In this document: positions 664 through 35,876 of the stretch, in pieces
How the letters are laid out: each line of letters starts with the position of its first letter
How positions within the stretch are numbered: the first letter of the stretch is position 1
Program-made: the position numbers and the translations under genes
Notes under the pieces: model-generated
Told to the model about the DNA's origin: nothing
The model's input: only the letters and a program-made list of their open reading frames with translations
Database searches by the model: none
IMG/VR virus record: IMGVR_UViG_3300037245_000690
Coordinates: 1-38,454 of that record
Source: a virus
Direction: 5' to 3' (one strand)
Length of the DNA: 38,454 nt

Positions 664-692
664 GCTTTATCTTTATTTATTTTTCACCCATG

Positions 693-710
693 TTGGCACG
701 TTCCTTGCAT
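693..710 (+). promoter_or_regulatory. Sigma54 (RpoN)-type promoter of the late operon
   Basis: TTGGCACG (693-700), four bases, then TTGCAT (705-710) matches the sigma54 consensus TGGCACG-N4-TTGCA at every conserved position, with the required 12-base offset between the -24 G and the -12 C. The predicted start is near 720. An AT-rich tract (661-690) lies just upstream. It is the only such match I found in the window and sits in the intergenic region in front of the rightward structural operon. Sigma54 promoters need an AAA+ enhancer-binding activator; none is encoded here, so it would be a host protein. Confidence 0.8.
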
Positions 711-720
711 ACATGCTCAA

Positions 721-838
721 CTACTTTAGGTTGTATCTAACAACCTAAAGTTCTACCACTTTAGGTTGTATTCCTGGCTGCTGGCCGGACAACTTAAAGT
801 TGTAGAACCCCCCTGCCCCGATACAACCTAAACTACTA
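721..838. repeat. Five copies of an inverted-repeat motif (operator-like)
   Basis: The motif TACTTTAGGTTGTA or its complement TACAACCTAAAGTA occurs at 722-735 (+), about 739-756 (-), 757-770 (+), 789-805 (a near-palindromic variant CAACTTAAAGTTG) and 821-838 (-). Copies 1 and 2 face each other, as do 2 and 3. The cluster begins at the predicted sigma54 start site and ends before the first late gene. It could bind a repressor, a sigma54 activator or a replication initiator. The remaining 841-966 stretch holds a weak GGGG/CCCC hairpin and a run of T but no gene I can support. Confidence 0.7.
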
Positions 839-1830: not shown

Positions 1831-2240
1831 TGCCAGAAGAAATTAAAATAGTAGAGACGATGTCCACTGAGCAGTATGAAGCTCAGCAGGCATTGGAGAG
1901 TAAGCTCAACGACATTGCCACGGCTTCTACACAGTACGGTGGAGGCAAGCTACTCAAGTTCACGCGCTCTACCAAAGTAACTCGGGCAGATGTAGTTGAG
2001 TCTTTTACCAACGCTTTCCAGATGATAGGGGGAGTTGATAGACTTGCGCTGTGGGCTGACCAGAACCCAGGCGATTTCTACAAACTGTTCGGCAAACTGA
2101 TGCCCCCCGCTGCGAGCGACTTACTGGACGGCCAGCGTGAGTTCGTGGTGAGGCACATCCTCCCGCCCCCTGAAATGGATACGAACCCACGCCAGACTCA
2201 GCGCACGCTGGAAGCGGAGTACACTGAGATAGATGCCTGA
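1830..2240 (+). CDS. Terminase small subunit (probable)
   Basis: A 136-residue protein just upstream of, and overlapping by eight bases, the large terminase gene. Its central segment (FTNAFQMIGGVDRLALWADQ, then NPxxFYKLFGKLMP) resembles small-terminase-like proteins of environmental podoviruses, in which an IGG-WA-NP-FYKL pattern recurs. The predicted role is recognition of concatemeric phage DNA and stimulation of the large subunit at the portal. The assignment rests on position and this motif; a helix-turn-helix is not obvious. Confidence 0.7.
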   Translation: MPEEIKIVETMSTEQYEAQQALESKLNDIATASTQYGGGKLLKFTRSTKVTRADVVESFTNAFQMIGGVDRLALWADQNPGDFYKLFGKLMPPAASDLLDGQREFVVRHILPPPEMDTNPRQTQRTLEAEYTEIDA

Positions 2241-3546
2241 AGTAACAGTCCCTTATGAACCACGACCACAATTCATGCCACTCCACCTGCGAAAGCAGAG
2301 ATGGGCGGTCGTGGTGGCGCATAGGCGAGCTGGTAAGACGGTGGCTACCCTCAATGACCTCGTGTCCATGGCGCTCTATACTGACAAGGAGCGAGCCAGG
2401 TATGCGTACATCGCTCCATTCTACAGCCAAGCGAAACAGATCGCTTGGGATTATCTGGTCCACTACTGCCGCGATGTTTCTGTCAAGGTTAGTATTTCAA
2501 GTCTTTCTATTGATTTATTTAACGGTGCTCGTATCACTCTATACGGTGCTGATAATCCTGACGCACTTCGCGGGGTTTACTTTGACGGCGTTGTCATTGA
2601 CGAGTATGGCGACTGCAAGCCTTCGCTATGGACTGAGATTATCCGTCCGACTTTGGCAGACAGACGTGGGTGGGCTACCTTCATTGGAACTCCGAATGGG
2701 CTGAACCATTTCTACGACATTTGGGAGTTTGCCAAGGCGCATCCAAACGAATGGTTCACTTTACAACTGCCACAGAGCGAAACAGGCATTCTCGACCAAG
2801 ACGAGGTCGAAGAAATGCGGACCATGATGGAGGAAGATGAGTTTGAGCAAGAAATTGAATGCTCGTTCATGGCCGCGACTCGAGGTGCGTTCTACAGCAA
2901 TGAACTCAAGAAGGCACAGATTGGCTCTTACCCGGTTGACCCCAGCCGAAAATCGAACTACGTTTTTGACCTTGGCTACACGGATTCTACAGCAATATGG
3001 CGATGGACGGAATACCCGGACGCCATTGAAATAAACTTGACTTATGAACAGGATAACAGGTCGATACAGTATTATATTGATTGGCTCCACTCTCAGCGGG
3101 AAGCCGGTCTTACGATTGGAGATGTGTGGTTGCCTTTCGACGCTAAGGCCAAGACCCTCCAAACTGGTAGAAGTATCGTGGAACAATTCCTCAGTGGTGG
3201 GATACGGCCTAAGATTGTCCCGAAACTCGATTTGCTGGACGGAATTCAAGCAGCCAGAATGCTTTTTCCAACCCTGTACTTTGACGAACAGGGCTGCAAA
3301 GATGGACTATTGGCGCTCCGTAGCTACCGGCGCATCTGGAATCCCGAGCGCAGCGAGTATGGAGCCAAGCCCGTCCACGATTGGTCCAGCAACTATGCGG
3401 ATTCCTTTAGGTACCTCTGTCTTGTCGCTAAAACCAAAGAAGACAACCTCCCTGGAGAGCCAAGGCCATTTGCACGAGAAATCAACTATGGCTTCTGCTT
3501 GGATGACCTCTGGAAGACAAGAGAAGAGCATGATGGGTGGCACTGA
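2233..3546 (+). CDS. terL: Terminase large subunit
   Basis: A 437-residue DNA-packaging motor: an ATPase joined to an RNase H-like nuclease that pumps DNA into the prohead and cuts concatemers. Residues 29-36 (AHRRAGKT) are the Walker A loop, VVIDE (120-124) is the Walker B strand with its catalytic Glu, and GTPNG further on fits the coupling motif. The nuclease domain starts near DLGYTDSTAIW, continues with PFDAKAK, and ends with HDWSSNYADSFRY, which supplies the last metal-binding Asp. Length is normal for the compact terminases. It overlaps the preceding gene by 8 bases and the next gene through TGATG. Confidence 0.96.
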   Translation: MPEVTVPYEPRPQFMPLHLRKQRWAVVVAHRRAGKTVATLNDLVSMALYTDKERARYAYIAPFYSQAKQIAWDYLVHYCRDVSVKVSISSLSIDLFNGARITLYGADNPDALRGVYFDGVVIDEYGDCKPSLWTEIIRPTLADRRGWATFIGTPNGLNHFYDIWEFAKAHPNEWFTLQLPQSETGILDQDEVEEMRTMMEEDEFEQEIECSFMAATRGAFYSNELKKAQIGSYPVDPSRKSNYVFDLGYTDSTAIWRWTEYPDAIEINLTYEQDNRSIQYYIDWLHSQREAGLTIGDVWLPFDAKAKTLQTGRSIVEQFLSGGIRPKIVPKLDLLDGIQAARMLFPTLYFDEQGCKDGLLALRSYRRIWNPERSEYGAKPVHDWSSNYADSFRYLCLVAKTKEDNLPGEPRPFAREINYGFCLDDLWKTREEHDGWH

Positions 3547-4176: not shown

Positions 4177-6219
4177 ATGTCCACTACAGAAACCAGTTCG
4201 AGAGAAATGGGACAATCGCCTGTTGAACCTCGGGTAAATGATGACAAAAACCCCGATATACAAGGCGAACTTCTTGGTGTTCCCAAGTACGATATTCAGT
4301 ACTGGAAAGACCAGATAAATTTAGCCAGTAAGGAGTTACAGAAGTTCCATGAGCGTGGGCGTAAGACTCAGCGACGCTACCTCGATGACCGTGAAGCCAA
4401 TGACGAGCAAAGCAGAAAATTCAACCTTTTCTGGGCTAACACGGGAGTCCTTCGGGCTGCTCTATATGCTAACCCACCCTCACCCACCGTTAAGCGCGAG
4501 TGGGACGATTTCAATGACGACGTGGGCCGAGTGGCAGCGGAAATCCTGGAACGACTACTCAAACTTGGACTCCAGCGCCCAAGAGGCGATATGGACGTCG
4601 CCTTCTCCTACGCTACCGAAGACCGCTTAATTCCCGGGCTTGGGCAGGTCTGGCTGAGGTACGACGTACAGACACAGACTAAGCAGATTCCCAACACGCC
4701 CATAGAATACGAGCAAATTACGGACGAAGAGGCCATAACGGACTACATCTATTGGGAAGACTTCCTGTGGTCTCCGTGCCGTATTTGGGAAGAGTGTCGG
4801 TGGGTTGCGCGTCAGGCGCACATGACTAAAGAGCGAGCAGTTGCACGTTTTGGCGAAGAGGTTGCCAATCGGCTAACCTACAGCGATAAGTTTGAGAATG
4901 TGGACCGAGTGGGCGCACAGGACAATACCCCTGTTCGCCGCCCTGAGGCCACGTCCAGCGTGTGGGAGATTTGGAACAAAACCACCAGGACTGTCTACTG
5001 GGTTTCCACCACTGATGTAGATCGCGTACTGGATAAGAAAGAAGACCCACTTGGTTTGGAAGGGTTCTTCCCTTGCCCGAAGCCGCTCCTTGCTACTCAC
5101 AGCACGAGCAACATGACTCCGCGGCCGGATTACTACATGACCAAGGATCAGTATGAAGAAATTGACACGCTTAACACGCGAATCAACTGGCTTGTCAAAG
5201 CCTGCAAAGCTGCCGGAGTCTACGACAAGTCAGCAGAGGGCATCCAGCGCCTCTTCCAACAGGGCACCGAAAACTCGCTCATACCCGTTGATAACTGGGC
5301 TATGTTTGCAGAAAGGGGTGGTGTTCAGGGACAAATTGACTGGATACCTATTGAGCAGATTGCAGCGGTAATCACCATTCTTACTGCGAAACAGGGTGAA
5401 ATGGTCCAGCAACTTTACGAGTTGACTGGTATCTCCGACATCATGCGTGGGAATACCGAAGCACGAGAGACCCTCGGTGCCCAGCAACTCAAGGCTCAGT
5501 ACGGTAGTGTCCGGCTCCAGTATATCCAGGGCACCATCGCTGAGTTTGTCACAGAGGCTATGCGTATCAAGGCCGACATTATCTCCAAGCACTTTCAACC
5601 GGAGACGATTATTAAGAAAAGCCTTATACAGATGATTCCGCAGGTTGACCACCCGCTTATTCAGCCTGCTATCCAGCTTCTTAAGAATACGCCCGTCGCA
5701 GCCTACCACCTGGAGATAGAAGCGGACACCATGTCCATTCCGGACTATGCTGTGGAAAAACAGAGCCGGCTGGACTACATCACGGCTATGGGGCAACTTA
5801 TCAGCCAGAGCTGGCAGGCTATTGAGGCTGCGCCAGAGATGGCCCCCCTCGTGCTACAGACTCTCCAGTGGGGTGCGGCTGGGTTTAAGAACGGCAGGTA
5901 CCTGGAAGGTGTGCTGGATCAGGCTGTGGACCAGGCCATGAAGATGATGCAGAAGAAGCAGCAAGAGCCGCCTCCGCCTGACCCCGCAGTCATTGAGGCG
6001 CAGGCTGACGCGAAGCGTAAGGACCAGGAAGCCCAACAGGATGCGATGATTAAGGCGCGAGATGCCAACGCTGAGGTGCAACAGGGCAACATGGAGACGC
6101 AGAATGAAATCCAGCAGGATAATCTGGATGCTGCTAATGAGCGCCGTCTTGCTTGGCTCAAGGGGCACACTGACGCTGAAATCGCGCGCATGGTAGCGAG
6201 GGCTAGGACTGATGCGTAG
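4177..6219 (+). CDS. Portal protein
   Basis: A 680-residue protein of the size and position expected for a podovirus head-tail connector, the dodecameric channel for DNA entry and exit. The N-terminus has a helical region with many charged residues (YWKDQINLASKELQKFH), then the FNLFWANTGVLRAALYANPP segment often seen near the start of this portal type. The middle (DLxWSPxRxWEECRWVARQAHM) is typical of the clip and wing. The last 100 residues are a Gln/Glu/Asp/Ala-rich coiled coil (MKMMQKKQQEPPPPDPAVIE) that fits a barrel or crown. It is followed by scaffold and capsid genes. Confidence 0.9.
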   Translation: MSTTETSSREMGQSPVEPRVNDDKNPDIQGELLGVPKYDIQYWKDQINLASKELQKFHERGRKTQRRYLDDREANDEQSRKFNLFWANTGVLRAALYANPPSPTVKREWDDFNDDVGRVAAEILERLLKLGLQRPRGDMDVAFSYATEDRLIPGLGQVWLRYDVQTQTKQIPNTPIEYEQITDEEAITDYIYWEDFLWSPCRIWEECRWVARQAHMTKERAVARFGEEVANRLTYSDKFENVDRVGAQDNTPVRRPEATSSVWEIWNKTTRTVYWVSTTDVDRVLDKKEDPLGLEGFFPCPKPLLATHSTSNMTPRPDYYMTKDQYEEIDTLNTRINWLVKACKAAGVYDKSAEGIQRLFQQGTENSLIPVDNWAMFAERGGVQGQIDWIPIEQIAAVITILTAKQGEMVQQLYELTGISDIMRGNTEARETLGAQQLKAQYGSVRLQYIQGTIAEFVTEAMRIKADIISKHFQPETIIKKSLIQMIPQVDHPLIQPAIQLLKNTPVAAYHLEIEADTMSIPDYAVEKQSRLDYITAMGQLISQSWQAIEAAPEMAPLVLQTLQWGAAGFKNGRYLEGVLDQAVDQAMKMMQKKQQEPPPPDPAVIEAQADAKRKDQEAQQDAMIKARDANAEVQQGNMETQNEIQQDNLDAANERRLAWLKGHTDAEIARMVARARTDA

Positions 6220-7746: not shown

Positions 7747-8727
7747 ATGGCATTCCCAAACGTATCCGACATCGTCACTACGACTATTGAAAGTCGTACG
7801 CGACAAATCGCGGATAACGTAACCAAGAACAACGCGCTACTCGCGCGTCTCGAGCAGAGGGGCAACGTGAAGCCCTTCGGCGGCGGTTCCGTTATCTATC
7901 AGGAGCTGAGCTTCGCCGAGAACGGCAACGCCGGTTGGTATTCGGGATACGACCTCCTGCCGGTGGCAGCGCAGGACGTGATTTCGGCAGCCGAGTACGC
8001 GATCAAGCAGCTTGCCTGCCCGGTCGTGATGTCCGGTCTCGAGATGCTCCAAAACAATGGCCGCGAGCGTATGATCGACCTGATGGAAGGTCGTATCAGC
8101 GTGGCCGAGTCCACGATGGCAAACGTCCTGGCGGACGGCGTCTATTCGGACGGCACCGGCGACGGTGGTAAGGAAATCGGTGGCCTCGATATCGCCATAC
8201 CTACGGATCCCACCGTGGGCACCTATGGCGGAATCGACCGCGCTGCGTTCCCGTTCTGGCGCTCCCAGGCATTTGACTCCGCCAGCATCAACGGTGGTGC
8301 CCTCACAGCGGCCAACGTCCAGAACCTCATGAATGAGGCATGGGCGAGCCTCGTGCGTGGCAGCGACCGGCCCGACCTCATCCCCATGGACTCGACGTTC
8401 TGGAACTACTACGTTTCCAGCTTGCAGAGCCTTCAGCGCTTCAACGGCACTGAAGTCGGCAAACTGGGGTTCCCGACCATCAAGTACATGGATGCGGACT
8501 GCGTGCTGGACGGCGGCATCGGCGGGTTCTGCCCAGCCGAGACAGCGTTTATGATGAACACCAAGTACATCTTCCTGCGGCCTCACCGCGACAGGAACAT
8601 GGTGCCCTTGATGCCCAGCAAACGCTACGCCATCAACCAGGACGCCGAAGTCCAGATCCTCGGCTGGGCCGGAAATCTCACTACCTCCGGTTCCGAGTTC
8701 CAGGGTCGTCTCTTCGACACAACCTAA
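7747..8727 (+). CDS. Major capsid protein
   Basis: A 326-residue protein of the size and position of the main head protein. It has the Ala/Gly-rich, mixed alpha-beta character of HK97-fold capsids: a helical start (SRTRQIADNVTKNNALLARLEQRGNV) followed by FGGGSVIYQEL, and a central helix with MIDLMEGRISVAESTM. Codons end mainly in G or C, in contrast to the neighbours, which fits the most highly translated late gene. Hairpins flank it on both sides (7644-7663, 8751-8779). A long reading frame on the opposite strand is a by-product of this codon bias. Confidence 0.88.
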   Translation: MAFPNVSDIVTTTIESRTRQIADNVTKNNALLARLEQRGNVKPFGGGSVIYQELSFAENGNAGWYSGYDLLPVAAQDVISAAEYAIKQLACPVVMSGLEMLQNNGRERMIDLMEGRISVAESTMANVLADGVYSDGTGDGGKEIGGLDIAIPTDPTVGTYGGIDRAAFPFWRSQAFDSASINGGALTAANVQNLMNEAWASLVRGSDRPDLIPMDSTFWNYYVSSLQSLQRFNGTEVGKLGFPTIKYMDADCVLDGGIGGFCPAETAFMMNTKYIFLRPHRDRNMVPLMPSKRYAINQDAEVQILGWAGNLTTSGSEFQGRLFDTT

Positions 8728-8750: not shown

Positions 8751-8779
8751 GGGCGGGGTAGATCCCCCGCCCATCTTTT
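8751..8779 (+). terminator. Terminator-like hairpin after the capsid gene
   Basis: GGGCGGGG (8751-8758) and CCCCGCCC (8765-8772) form an 8-bp stem with a six-base loop, followed by ATCTTTT. It lies 24 bases after the capsid stop. It probably ends or attenuates transcription so that capsid mRNA exceeds the tail genes; downstream genes would need read-through. Confidence 0.8.
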
Positions 8780-26111: not shown

Positions 26112-26471
26112 TTAGTCTTGGTCAACATATCCTTTGCCTCGTGGCACCCCACTATCGGGGTTCATGTACCTGTTCATAGCATTCACACTTTCCAGGGCAT
26201 CCCTGGCTTCAGCATGTTCCTGCGCCAGCACGTCCCCTGTCTTTTCTACAGGTATTTCTGTGTGCTGTTCGAGCTCATGCTCAATTAGTTTGTCAATGAA
26301 ATGCTTCGCCTTACGCAGGTCTTCCACCCCATTCTTCTTACGCCAGCGCATCATATATTTGATAACCTGGGCTTCCATGTACGGGATGTCGTGCATTAGG
26401 ACGAAGTCCCAATGCTCAATGCGCTCCCCTTTATAGTGAGCGCCGCCTTCTTGTTTGTCGTTAGCTGCCAT
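26112..26471 (-). CDS. DUF3310 family protein (possible nucleotide kinase)
   Basis: A 119-residue protein with the DUF3310 pattern: GGAHYKGERIEHWDFVLMH (residues 9-27), VIKYMMRWRKKNGVEDLRKAKHFIDKLIEHE. This is a widespread small phage family; T7 gp1.7, which phosphorylates dGMP and dTMP, is usually placed in it, though I recall this from the literature and cannot verify it here. The gene overlaps the thymidylate synthase-fold gene by 11 bases. If it is a dNMP kinase, it could convert a modified dUMP for use in DNA synthesis. That is inference from context. Confidence 0.75.
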   Translation of the reverse strand: MAANDKQEGGAHYKGERIEHWDFVLMHDIPYMEAQVIKYMMRWRKKNGVEDLRKAKHFIDKLIEHELEQHTEIPVEKTGDVLAQEHAEARDALESVNAMNRYMNPDSGVPRGKGYVDQD

Positions 26472-27438
26472 TCTGCCTCCGTGTTAACCATGTGACGCAA
26501 GCGTGCCTCCAATCAGGAGCATCGATGTAGTTTGCCAAGTCAATTGCTATTGGCAGATCTCTTTCCTTATATGCCTGGAAGCTTTGCCACATAGGGTATG
26601 CTACACCAGATAAAAAAGAAGAGCCAGTATTATCGTGCGGCTTGTCTAGCCACCCCTTCAGCTCGTCATCAAAGACAGCGTAGTCTCCTTGGAATAAGAG
26701 GGGGCCGGGGGATATAGCCTCCCCTAGATAGTGGTTGATTGACCGCGGGTTCCCCCACAATTCTTCAAACCGGGGCATTCCTGGATAAACGTGGAAGTTA
26801 TTACTGAATTGATATAATTTACCGACTAGCTTTCTTAGCGAACAGGCTATATACTCCTGCAGAAAACTAAAGTGAACGACATTGGCCCCATAGCATCCCC
26901 AGATGGCATCGTTGCTCCGACACGTGATAGTCAGGTCTACGTAGTCTTGTCGAATGTTTACATACAACTGAGTGTTGCATGGTAGATCTTTAGAGTCTGT
27001 TCCCAAGTCCACGAGAGGGTCCCACATAGTGATGACCGCTCTCCTACTATCTGGGTGCTCCTCTAACAGATGTACGACCTTGTGTACTTGGTCTTCGTTC
27101 CAATGCTGACGCCATCTGTACCCGTATGCTCCTTGTAGAGTTTCACCGTCATCACTAAACTCACGCATACGGGGGAGCAGATACTCCACGTACTCTAGAT
27201 CTCTGCGTCCCGCCAGCATCCACATAGACTCAAAGAAATGGAAGAAAGGGTTGGCATCACGTTGTTCAGAAAACAGTACACGTTCACGGGGATTATGATA
27301 AACATTAACCACGGGATAAGGAGATACAATGACCTGACCATTTCTACTATCCTGTACCTCCCCTGATATCTTTAGCCACCACAGACCATCCCCGTAGTTT
27401 TCGTTGACGTTTAACCTGCTAATCGTGTGGACTGACAT
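26461..27438 (-). CDS. Thymidylate synthase-fold enzyme, probably dUMP hydroxymethylase
   Basis: A 325-residue enzyme of the thymidylate synthase/hydroxymethylase fold. Markers in order are FESMWMLAG, QGAYGYRWR, SRRAVITMWDP, LPCNTQ with catalytic Cys154, CRSNDAIWG (Arg174, Ser175, Asp177) and GAN with Asn186. In thymidylate synthase an Asn in this region contacts the uracil; dCMP hydroxymethylases carry an Asp. That favours dUMP as substrate. Whether it makes dTMP or 5-hydroxymethyl-dUMP cannot be read from sequence. Adjacent DNA-modification genes favour hydroxymethylation. The start is weakly supported (GGAG about 11 bases upstream). Confidence 0.82.
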   Translation of the reverse strand: MSVHTISRLNVNENYGDGLWWLKISGEVQDSRNGQVIVSPYPVVNVYHNPRERVLFSEQRDANPFFHFFESMWMLAGRRDLEYVEYLLPRMREFSDDGETLQGAYGYRWRQHWNEDQVHKVVHLLEEHPDSRRAVITMWDPLVDLGTDSKDLPCNTQLYVNIRQDYVDLTITCRSNDAIWGCYGANVVHFSFLQEYIACSLRKLVGKLYQFSNNFHVYPGMPRFEELWGNPRSINHYLGEAISPGPLLFQGDYAVFDDELKGWLDKPHDNTGSSFLSGVAYPMWQSFQAYKERDLPIAIDLANYIDAPDWRHACVTWLTRRQNGS

Positions 27439-27625
27439 TGTCTACGAACTCCAGTTTGTACACGAGGGCGAACCGCTCAGCACTATCTAGGCTGCTAAAG
27501 ATCTTGACCCAAGTTGGCGGTCCGTCCGGTACGTCTAGTATAGCACTGACCCGCCCATCTGCAAACAACGTTCTAGCTGTCAGGGTGCCTTCCTTGATAT
27601 CGCTGTTTTGGTTTTGAGGTTCCAA
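27419..27625 (-). CDS. Small hypothetical protein in modification operon
   Basis: A reading frame of about 50-87 residues whose start is unclear. The TTG at 27625 is used here; ATG 27682, CTG 27583 and TTG 27568 are alternatives. The C-terminal 50 residues (VSAILDVPDGPPTWVKIFSSLDSAERFALVYKLEFVD) look like a folded domain and overlap the next start by 20 bases. It lies between the HhH protein and the synthase-fold gene. No family is recognised. Confidence 0.45.
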   Translation of the reverse strand: MEPQNQNSDIKEGTLTARTLFADGRVSAILDVPDGPPTWVKIFSSLDSAERFALVYKLEFVDNVSPHD

Positions 27626-28436
27626 GGTATGTTCTATCCCATTTGTCAAACTCACACAGGCAATTCTGGAAGTCCTGTGCATCTATCTCTGGCATTGGAT
27701 TCAGAAGTCGGTCAACGGGCACCCGCGCCGCATGTAGGCGTGCCAGGAAGCCTGCCCGTGAGGGCCTGTGCGCCTCCTCGAGCCTTGCGAGACCCCGTAG
27801 GCTACCAGGGCCAGGGGTTGCCCAAGTGAAGCGGTCAGGGGCCTCTGACAGCGGGTGACCGGGGGTGTTCTTAAGGTCAGCAATGATTTGCCCAGCGAGG
27901 AAGTCCCCTAATCCTTTGGTCTGCGTTAGCCTTCTGTGAAAGTCCTCCAGTGGTACGAAGCAGGGTACCTTGAATACTGGGTCTCTGTAGACATCGTTGG
28001 CTACCCGGAAGACATAGTCCACTTTATCCATTTTCACACCGCAGGTGGTGATGAGGTATGCCCCGTTGAATATCTTTTTCTTGTCTGCTCGCAGGTCCTT
28101 GACTATCTCCGTCATGCGAATAACAGACCACTCATGGGGGAACCCAATCGCTCCAAGCGTAGACGGAAGATTAAACATACGGGCAAGGACCATCCCCGGT
28201 ACCAGATTAGGCTCACGAGCATTACCATCCCGCCATTGGTCAGCAATCCAGCGTGTAACCGCATCGTTTTCTCTATGAACGTTGCAGAATCTGAAATTCT
28301 GCAATATACGGTCGCTAGTCCAAGGTTTAGGTTCACCCGCTTCTTTCTTCCGGTGAATTATCCAGCGGTGGTTTATCCAGTGTGCCATTCGTTCTGCCGG
28401 AGTGGGTGTAGGCTCTTTTCCATTGGATTCTGACAT
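27573..28436 (-). CDS. aGPT-PPlase/HMUDK-helical type HhH DNA-modification protein
   Basis: A 287-residue protein I recognise as the helical family described with thymine hypermodification (alpha-glutamyl/putrescinyl-thymine pyrophosphorylase; also the helical half of 5-hydroxymethyl-dU DNA kinase). Markers are PWTSDRIL and RFCNVHREND (residues 49-58), ARMFNLPSTLGAIGF, IFNGAYLITTCGVKMDKV, TKGLGDFLAGQIIADL (173-188; helix-hairpin-helix, like a DNA glycosylase), GPGSLRGL (209-216) and LCEFDKWDRTY. The P-loop kinase half is absent. It presumably binds modified base in DNA. It starts with a GGAG ribosome site inside the preceding gene, overlapping by 104 bases. Confidence 0.82.
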   Translation of the reverse strand: MSESNGKEPTPTPAERMAHWINHRWIIHRKKEAGEPKPWTSDRILQNFRFCNVHRENDAVTRWIADQWRDGNAREPNLVPGMVLARMFNLPSTLGAIGFPHEWSVIRMTEIVKDLRADKKKIFNGAYLITTCGVKMDKVDYVFRVANDVYRDPVFKVPCFVPLEDFHRRLTQTKGLGDFLAGQIIADLKNTPGHPLSEAPDRFTWATPGPGSLRGLARLEEAHRPSRAGFLARLHAARVPVDRLLNPMPEIDAQDFQNCLCEFDKWDRTYLGTSKPKQRYQGRHPDS

Positions 28437-29160
28437 CTGTGCGCTCCTGTCCGCCCCATGCGGTCTTGGTTTGCTTCTTCACTACAGTAACGAACTTTGG
28501 AAAGTATTGCTTGAGCATATTGGCGGCATCTGCCTGCATCTCCATCGTACGATACTGACTACAGCCTCCGCTCTCATTGCTACCCCGCTGATTGTGGCAC
28601 CAGTTACTGAGCATTAGATTCTCGTACCCACGAGTCAATAGACTGAGAGCCACATAGAAATCTTCCATTACAGGTAGAGTTCTAAAGTCTATGTCATGTT
28701 TGCTCAGGGTGATGGTGTCGTAACCGAGTACGCGCAATAGACGTCCGTTGTAATAGAATTGGTTCGGGTACCTATTCCCGCCCTCCCTAGCGCATACTCC
28801 AACGAGGGGATAATCCTTTAGGTGATTCTCAATGCTGTCTAACATCTGTAGTATATCAGATCCAAAGGCATCTTCAAACTTGGTTGGGTCATCAACCCTG
28901 CGCCGGAAGAAAGTCAGATCATCATCAAGCATAAGCACTGGCTCTGGGTACGCAGCAGCGATAATGAATTGCCGGGTAGGACCAATGCCCTTATGAGGGC
29001 AGGGGATGACTGTACAGCCAGCTTCGGCTGCGACGGGGCAGTAGTCAGTGTACTCAGAATTGGGAACTACAAGTGCAGTCCTTGACATCCATTGGGTAGG
29101 GATCTGTTTTAGGGTGTGTTGTTCCCCCGCCCTACCTGAAGACGGTATATAGATTTGCAT
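28333..29160 (-). CDS. TAGT-like GT-A glycosyltransferase (DNA base modification)
   Basis: A 275-residue protein resembling the TET-associated glycosyltransferase family. It begins MQIYIPSSGRAGEQHTL, has KGIGPTRQFII and a DDD metal motif (residues 79-81, in VLMLDDDLTFFRRR), and later GSNESGGCSQYRT and a FPKFVTVV segment. GT-A enzymes use a nucleotide sugar and metal; members of this family glycosylate 5-hydroxymethylpyrimidines in phage DNA. No TET/JBP oxygenase is visible, so the hydroxymethyl base would come from the synthase-fold enzyme downstream. The start has an extended GAGGTGA ribosome site immediately past the terminator at 29171-29198. Confidence 0.75.
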   Translation of the reverse strand: MQIYIPSSGRAGEQHTLKQIPTQWMSRTALVVPNSEYTDYCPVAAEAGCTVIPCPHKGIGPTRQFIIAAAYPEPVLMLDDDLTFFRRRVDDPTKFEDAFGSDILQMLDSIENHLKDYPLVGVCAREGGNRYPNQFYYNGRLLRVLGYDTITLSKHDIDFRTLPVMEDFYVALSLLTRGYENLMLSNWCHNQRGSNESGGCSQYRTMEMQADAANMLKQYFPKFVTVVKKQTKTAWGGQERTDVRIQWKRAYTHSGRTNGTLDKPPLDNSPEERSG

Positions 29161-35549: not shown

Positions 35550-35649
35550 GCGTCACCTCCCACGCCCTTATCAGGTAGCCTCGGTCATTCCAATGCAATG
35601 CGATAAAGAACGATCCACCTTCTGTGAAGCCAAATTGGATAAACTTCAT
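35539..35649 (-). CDS. 36-residue micro-protein
   Basis: ATG 35649 follows a strong GAGGTGA ribosome site and encodes 36 residues (starts MKFIQFGFTEGGSFF, ends VTHVH). It is the first gene after the promoter at 35687-35715, and its stop overlaps the next start, so it may be translated as a leader for the operon or be a real small protein. Function is unknown. Confidence 0.65.
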   Translation of the reverse strand: MKFIQFGFTEGGSFFIALHWNDRGYLIRAWEVTHVH

Positions 35650-35686
35650 GTAATCACCTCTACGCTGACTGGGTGCCAGCTAAGTA

Positions 35687-35715
35687 ATTATATGCCTGTT
35701 CGCTGTTCCAAGCAA
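35687..35715 (-). promoter_or_regulatory. Sigma70 promoter of the replication operon
   Basis: On the minus strand: -35 TTGCTT (35710-35715), 17-base spacer, -10 TATAAT (35687-35692). The spacer shares GAACAGCGA with the promoter at 29681-29709. It drives the leftward replication genes. A hairpin lies just upstream at 35730-35750. Confidence 0.9.
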
Positions 35716-35729
35716 GCCCTGAAAAGCGA

Positions 35730-35750
35730 AACCCCTCATGAAGAGGGGTT
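35730..35750 (-). terminator. Hairpin upstream of the replication promoter
   Basis: AACCCCTC and GAGGGGTT form an 8-bp stem with a five-base loop. On the minus strand it is followed by a weak T-rich run (TCGCTTTTC). It may block read-through into the replication promoter from upstream leftward transcription. Confidence 0.55.
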
Positions 35751-35822
35751 GCCCGACGGGAGGTGACACCGTCTAGTGAGGCGGGGAAGCGTCACTTAGA
35801 CCATCATACTACCATAGAACAC

Positions 35823-35851
35823 TTGCCAGAGCAAGCGTTCTGGCGCATAAT
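35823..35851 (+). promoter_or_regulatory. Sigma70 promoter with internal palindrome (primase-helicase)
   Basis: -35 TTGCCA (35823-35828), 17-base spacer, -10 CATAAT (35846-35851), 26 bases before the primase-helicase ATG. GCCAGA (35825-35830) and TCTGGC (35839-35844) form an inverted repeat that overlaps the -35 box and spacer, as expected for a repressor operator. Confidence 0.8.
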
Positions 35852-35876
35852 GTAAGGCTAAGTCTGAGGTGTACAC

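Follow-up and report, generated by a model that had tools for sequence, protein, structure and literature searches.

A conserved sigma54-type site upstream of viral late genes as a candidate host-activated promoter

Introduction

Can a site of the -24/-12 type in front of a virus's late genes serve the sigma54 RNA polymerase of its host and, if so, is it the switch on which virion production depends? The question is raised by an uncultivated bacterial virus, record IMGVR_UViG_3300037245_000690, whose whole analysed stretch of 38,454 nucleotides is here called the window, and in which such a site lies upstream of the terminase and head genes. Phages that use host sigma54 have been described as rare, with Pseudomonas phage YuA, whose development depends on it, as the example (PMC5053324).

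Results

A divergent hub in front of the late genes

Genes on the + strand run from 967 to 24496, via the large terminase subunit (TerL), portal and capsid, and the gap before them holds candidate promoters and a repeat array:

217-489, - strand: gene for a small protein with a charged, low-complexity tail, transcribed away from the late operon and kept beside the hub in relatives
636-663, - strand: TTGCAA-N16-TATAAT, a sigma70-like promoter for the small - strand gene
693-710, + strand: candidate sigma54-type -24/-12 promoter, TTGGCACG-TTCC-TTGCAT, predicted start near 720
720-837, no strand: five 15-bp palindromes, mostly imperfect, of the type ACAACCTAAAGTTGT (720-734, 740-754, 755-769, 789-803 and 823-837)
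843-866, + strand: G-rich hairpin CCGGGGGGGTATGAACCCC in the leader, a motif common to many lineages
931-959, + strand: candidate sigma70-like promoter, rival or partner of the sigma54-type site (TTGCAT 931-936, N17, TATAAA 954-959; ATG at 967 after 7 nt)
967-1128, + strand: first gene of the late operon, 53 aa, phrog_16759
1830-2240, + strand: gp4, a conserved gene directly before TerL and the anchor of the comparative test
2233-3546, + strand: TerL
4177-6219, + strand: portal protein
7747-8727, + strand: major capsid protein
8751-8772, + strand: terminator-like hairpin 3' of the capsid gene

The gap at 490-966 had been taken for the only large one, which is incorrect, as there is another at 35550-35876. 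The original prediction also had the site facing the entire structural operon (967-24496); + strand genes do extend over that range, but the hairpin behind the capsid gene means that one transcript across the whole operon is not assured. No terminator-like site was found on the + strand between 693-710 and the first gene at 967. Judged by its position, gp4 is possibly small-terminase-like; a search of the phage collection for its relatives gave no match and no isolate with one. The product of the small divergent gene has a conserved ..YA(V/L)RRGW(L/V).. end and matched no family; among relatives its gene lies beside the hub in either orientation.

The site and its match to sigma54 promoters

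The site reads TTGGCACG at 693-700, the spacer TTCC at 701-704 and TTGCAT at 705-710, with the exact N10 spacing between GG(-24) and GC(-12) in a TGGCACG-N4-TTGCW context; it is intergenic, points towards a gene, and is the only zero-mismatch consensus match in the window. Transcription would be predicted to start at about A720. On a position matrix made from 29 ChIP-detected intergenic sigma54-bound sites of Salmonella (PMC3844500 Table 3), it scores 19.3, against a median of 19.4 for those 29 sites and 11.5 for the window's runner-up. The claimed agreement with the consensus at every key base, and in spacing, stands. The accompanying estimate of a one in a thousand chance is sound for the 13-14 base string itself (TTGGCACGN4TTGCAT occurred in 0/1000 dinucleotide shuffles of the window), but too optimistic for any equally good site in 38 kb: YTGGCACGN4TTGCW was found in 1% of 1000 dinucleotide-shuffled windows, and the matrix score was reached in 8/300 shuffles of the whole window (and in 1/2000 of the gap 490-966). 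It is the comparative evidence, and not these odds, that excludes chance.

Conservation among relatives

Relatives were fetched from viral contigs with TerL, portal and gp4, and loci were treated as separate where upstream identity fell below 90% over 200 bp; as their descent is not fully independent, the counts that follow overstate independent events. Upstream of gp4, 18 of 51 loci held sites scoring at least 14 on the matrix, 36 sites in all over 71 kb, against none in 147 kb downstream of gp4 and none in reversed sequence. The perfect consensus behaved likewise, with 25 occurrences in 95 kb upstream of gp4, none in 249 kb downstream, and none in 419 kb downstream of the terL start. In an open enumeration of 1.5 million gapped 6+4-mers, TGGCAC-N5-TTGC ranked first, occurring in 13 of 49 lineages. 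Perfect or near-perfect -24/-12 sites precede the late genes in L002, L007, L009/L010, L095/L096, L099/L100, L103-105, L185, L186, L189, L207/L208 and L209, among others. Conservation in related phages, put forward with the original prediction as a check, is thus borne out.

The most telling comparison is with a near-identical sister. The L002 contig differs from the window at 271 positions in 27.5 kb, nearly all of them within 1-850; identity within 490-845 is only about 55%, yet ATGTTGGCACG and CTTGCATAC are unchanged. An intact core in so diverged a stretch is the best single argument for selection on the site. More broadly, the window is near-identical to L002/L164 over 27 kb and departs from them almost solely in the regulatory stretch 1-850, a pattern that resembles the exchange of a cassette.

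Several relatives lack the site, carry it reversed or have something else in its place. Since the best sites face the opposite direction in some (L008 3580-, L184 2780-) and precede the small neighbouring gene in others (L205, L207, L094), their target would appear to be the regulatory hub, and not in every relative the late operon. Some sites are multiplied: face-to-face pairs sharing a TTGC..GCAA centre occur in L207 (1855-1990, three tandem pairs), L209 (1117-1152) and L065 (3610-3645), and ahead of the small gene in L094/L182, four 28-bp tandem repeats at 20-120 each hold a sigma54-like site.

A second candidate promoter at the first late gene

The strongest alternative accepts the site as real and differs from the preferred reading on which promoter matters: the late operon would be driven mainly by the sigma70-like element at 931-959, with the sigma54 site secondary, for special conditions or for transcription of the leader or of non-coding RNA. 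We consider the odds of this to be even. The hexamers of 931-959 agree with consensus at 8 of 12 bases, their spacing falls within 16-18 bp, and the element is conserved. A TTG-N16-18-hexamer arrangement whose end lies 5-9 nt ahead of the first late gene was seen in about 20 of the 31 loci checked; the rates were about 3% for other ORF starts and 1.9% for ATGs overall. Its conservation is wider than that of the sigma54 site, and it is present in lineages without one (L102, L097, L199 and L215), as well as in the cultured Stenotrophomonas phage BUCT555. That phage lacks a strong sigma54 site (best matrix score 11.3), and its late genes open with an ATG that TTGACT-N17-TATACT precedes by 7 nt. 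Set against this, the -35 hexamer is mostly TTGCAN rather than TTGACA, and in the window TATAAAGGAG overlaps the ribosome-binding site, the -10 sharing bases with its GGAG, because of which the element is likely, but not certain, to be functional; its mRNA would be leaderless or nearly so, starting at the ATG or no more than about 2 nt from it. That the sigma54 core is so strictly conserved speaks for a role of the sigma54 site as well. What the wider conservation of the sigma70-like element does make unlikely is that virion production depends on sigma54 alone.

Relatives may even have exchanged one promoter class for the other: L095 and L099 carry a sigma54 site in the slot where their sister L098 has TTGCAT-N17-TATCAT, an apparent single sigma54/sigma70 exchange, with the shared slot placed only loosely by the three-sequence alignment.

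The leader and its palindromes

The palindrome array occupies the first 120 or so nucleotides past the predicted start, and the G-rich CCGGGGG..CCCC motif (848-864), widespread among lineages, falls between the two promoters. Arrays stand beside the site in relatives as well, downstream in L002, L007, L095, L189 and L209 and upstream in L103, with units that differ in sequence from the window's, those of L002 and L007 being related. Coliphage 186 (at tum), GIL01 and CTXphi have promoters controlled by LexA. Like these, two lineages have boxes of the SOS pattern CTGT-N8-ACAG, here next to the sigma54 site, three in L095 (3912-3993) and five in L103 (1519-1618), and nowhere else in the examined parts of those records; the boxes were found in L095/L096 and L103-105. 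LexA may bind them. The window's own palindromes are of another type, and it contains no CTGT-N8-ACAG box. A GCTACAACTGCTACTT-like repeat array also lies upstream of the terminase genes of Rhodoferax phage P26218 (KP792623.1, 33660-33300), without a sigma54 site.

Such arrays invite another explanation, in which the palindromes form a replication origin (iterons) or a leader RNA element that the sigma54 promoter mainly serves. Short arrays of 15-18 bp repeats do adjoin the site in several lineages, and the leader at 719-848 folds far better than shuffled sequence (z -7.0); palindromic units, however, fold as RNA by construction, the unit sequences are unrelated between lineages, and the L103 array, being upstream of the start, is outside any leader. 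This explanation is accordingly unlikely. Two narrower ideas were rejected: that leader RNA structure is a feature in its own right, the palindromes accounting for the strong fold, and that the small divergent protein binds the array. The latter is unlikely because L095 and L099 have similar small proteins but unrelated palindromes; the protein's model, of moderate confidence (pLDDT 73), had no PDB match with E <= 0.001.

That TGGCAC-N5-TTGC is instead the binding site of some other phage or host DNA-binding protein, and no promoter, is highly improbable. Its clustering, its occurrence in both orientations and the face-to-face palindromes TGGCAC-N6-TTGC..GCAA-N6-GTGCCA of L207, L209 and L065 would suit such a protein, but the positions that stay fixed match sigma54 (TGGCAC/TG, N4, TTGC, A/T at -11) with the spacer free, matrix scores equal those of proven sigma54 sites, the majority of sites stand alone ahead of a gene, and a sigma70-like promoter fills one homologous slot instead. 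A chance match, for all that an equally good site turns up in roughly 1 to 3% of shuffled windows, has a negligible probability given the clade-wide enrichment with zero in controls and the core kept inside a diverged segment.

Sigma54, its activator and the host

HMM searches of the window and of the relatives searched found neither sigma54 (PF04552) nor an enhancer-binding protein (PF00158), in line with the original prediction that neither is encoded, and a host activator would hence be needed. No phage-encoded S24-type repressor was found, nor, among a short list of known motifs scanned in the window, any activator or IHF site near the promoter that might point to the host state being read, whether stress, nitrogen or motility. 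Scanned with TerL in search of the host, 84,980 species genomes gave three distant matches only, at no more than 43% identity; a host that carries rpoN is assumed. The best annotated relatives are a Manatee Spring podovirus and Methylophilales/Pelagibacter phages by TerL, and BUCT555 and Mx8 by capsid.

Discussion

On balance, we put at about 0.75 the probability that 693-710 is a functional host-sigma54 promoter, activated by the host, that stands beside a sigma70-like promoter and adds a conditional input to the late genes. Within the divergent hub, host sigma54 RNA polymerase would use this site, with a host enhancer-binding protein required, and rightward transcription would begin near 720 and pass through a leader with a palindromic, operator-like array into the terminase and head genes. 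The promoter would work alongside the more widely conserved sigma70-like element abutting the first gene, as a condition-dependent input to the late genes and, in certain relatives, to the adjacent small gene. The proposed tie between virion production and a host enhancer-binding protein is therefore upheld in part: a conserved site and the lack of a phage activator speak for it, but with 931-959 in place, sigma54 is probably not the only switch for the late genes. A counterpoint is the distance of about 250 bp from the predicted start to the first gene, within which the array and hairpins could block elongation, and the sigma70-like promoter alone could suffice.

Sigma54 late promoters are already known from phage YuA (Yuavirus, with phage M6): three strong -24/-12 promoters of the host-sigma54 type are annotated in the structural gene region of its record. 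The arrangement differs, however, in that the three YuA promoters lie inside the structural region, whereas the window has one consensus-quality site, accompanied by an array, in a divergent hub ahead of its terminase genes; the YuA record tops out at 11.8 on the Salmonella matrix, compared with 19.3 here; and TerL and capsid relatives place the window phage outside the YuA lineage (Mesyanzhinovviridae). YuA also has a homologue of the window's 5-hmdU kinase (PF18723), which is encoded at 26461-29160 with a thymidylate-synthase-like protein and a TET-associated glycosyltransferase, genes from which the phage DNA probably contains hypermodified thymidine. The idea that this modification forces the use of sigma54 finds no support as a general rule, the kinase being present in relatives with and without the site.

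With bacterial RpoN promoters the site shares TGGCACG-N4-TTGCA, the exact spacing and an equal score, but the window has no recognised upstream activator site and its repeat array is downstream of the start. BUCT555 resembles the window in layout and has a related capsid gene, with 75.5% DNA identity across 234 bp. Sites of similar quality on the Salmonella matrix were not found in YuA, BUCT555 or P26218; Mx8 has one sigma54-type site, at 14.9, in a position not before the terminase. What would appear to be new, as far as sequence allows, is the conservation of sigma54 sites across a clade for which no isolate was found in the phage collection, together with the site clusters, the lineage-specific palindrome arrays (SOS-box-like in two lineages) and the one apparent exchange of sigma54 for sigma70.

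The locus is a compact hub in which the class of sigma factor, the number of sites and the adjoining operator array vary among relatives. Use of the site would tie the making of virions to enhancer-binding proteins of the host and make the phage's choice of host signal testable. A bolder and rather doubtful extension would see the hub as an exchangeable sensor of host state, a single slot before the late genes that takes either a sigma54 or a sigma70 promoter, with arrays of host-regulator operators, different from lineage to lineage, flanking it; were that true, close phage relatives would differ mainly in which host signals license the production of virions.
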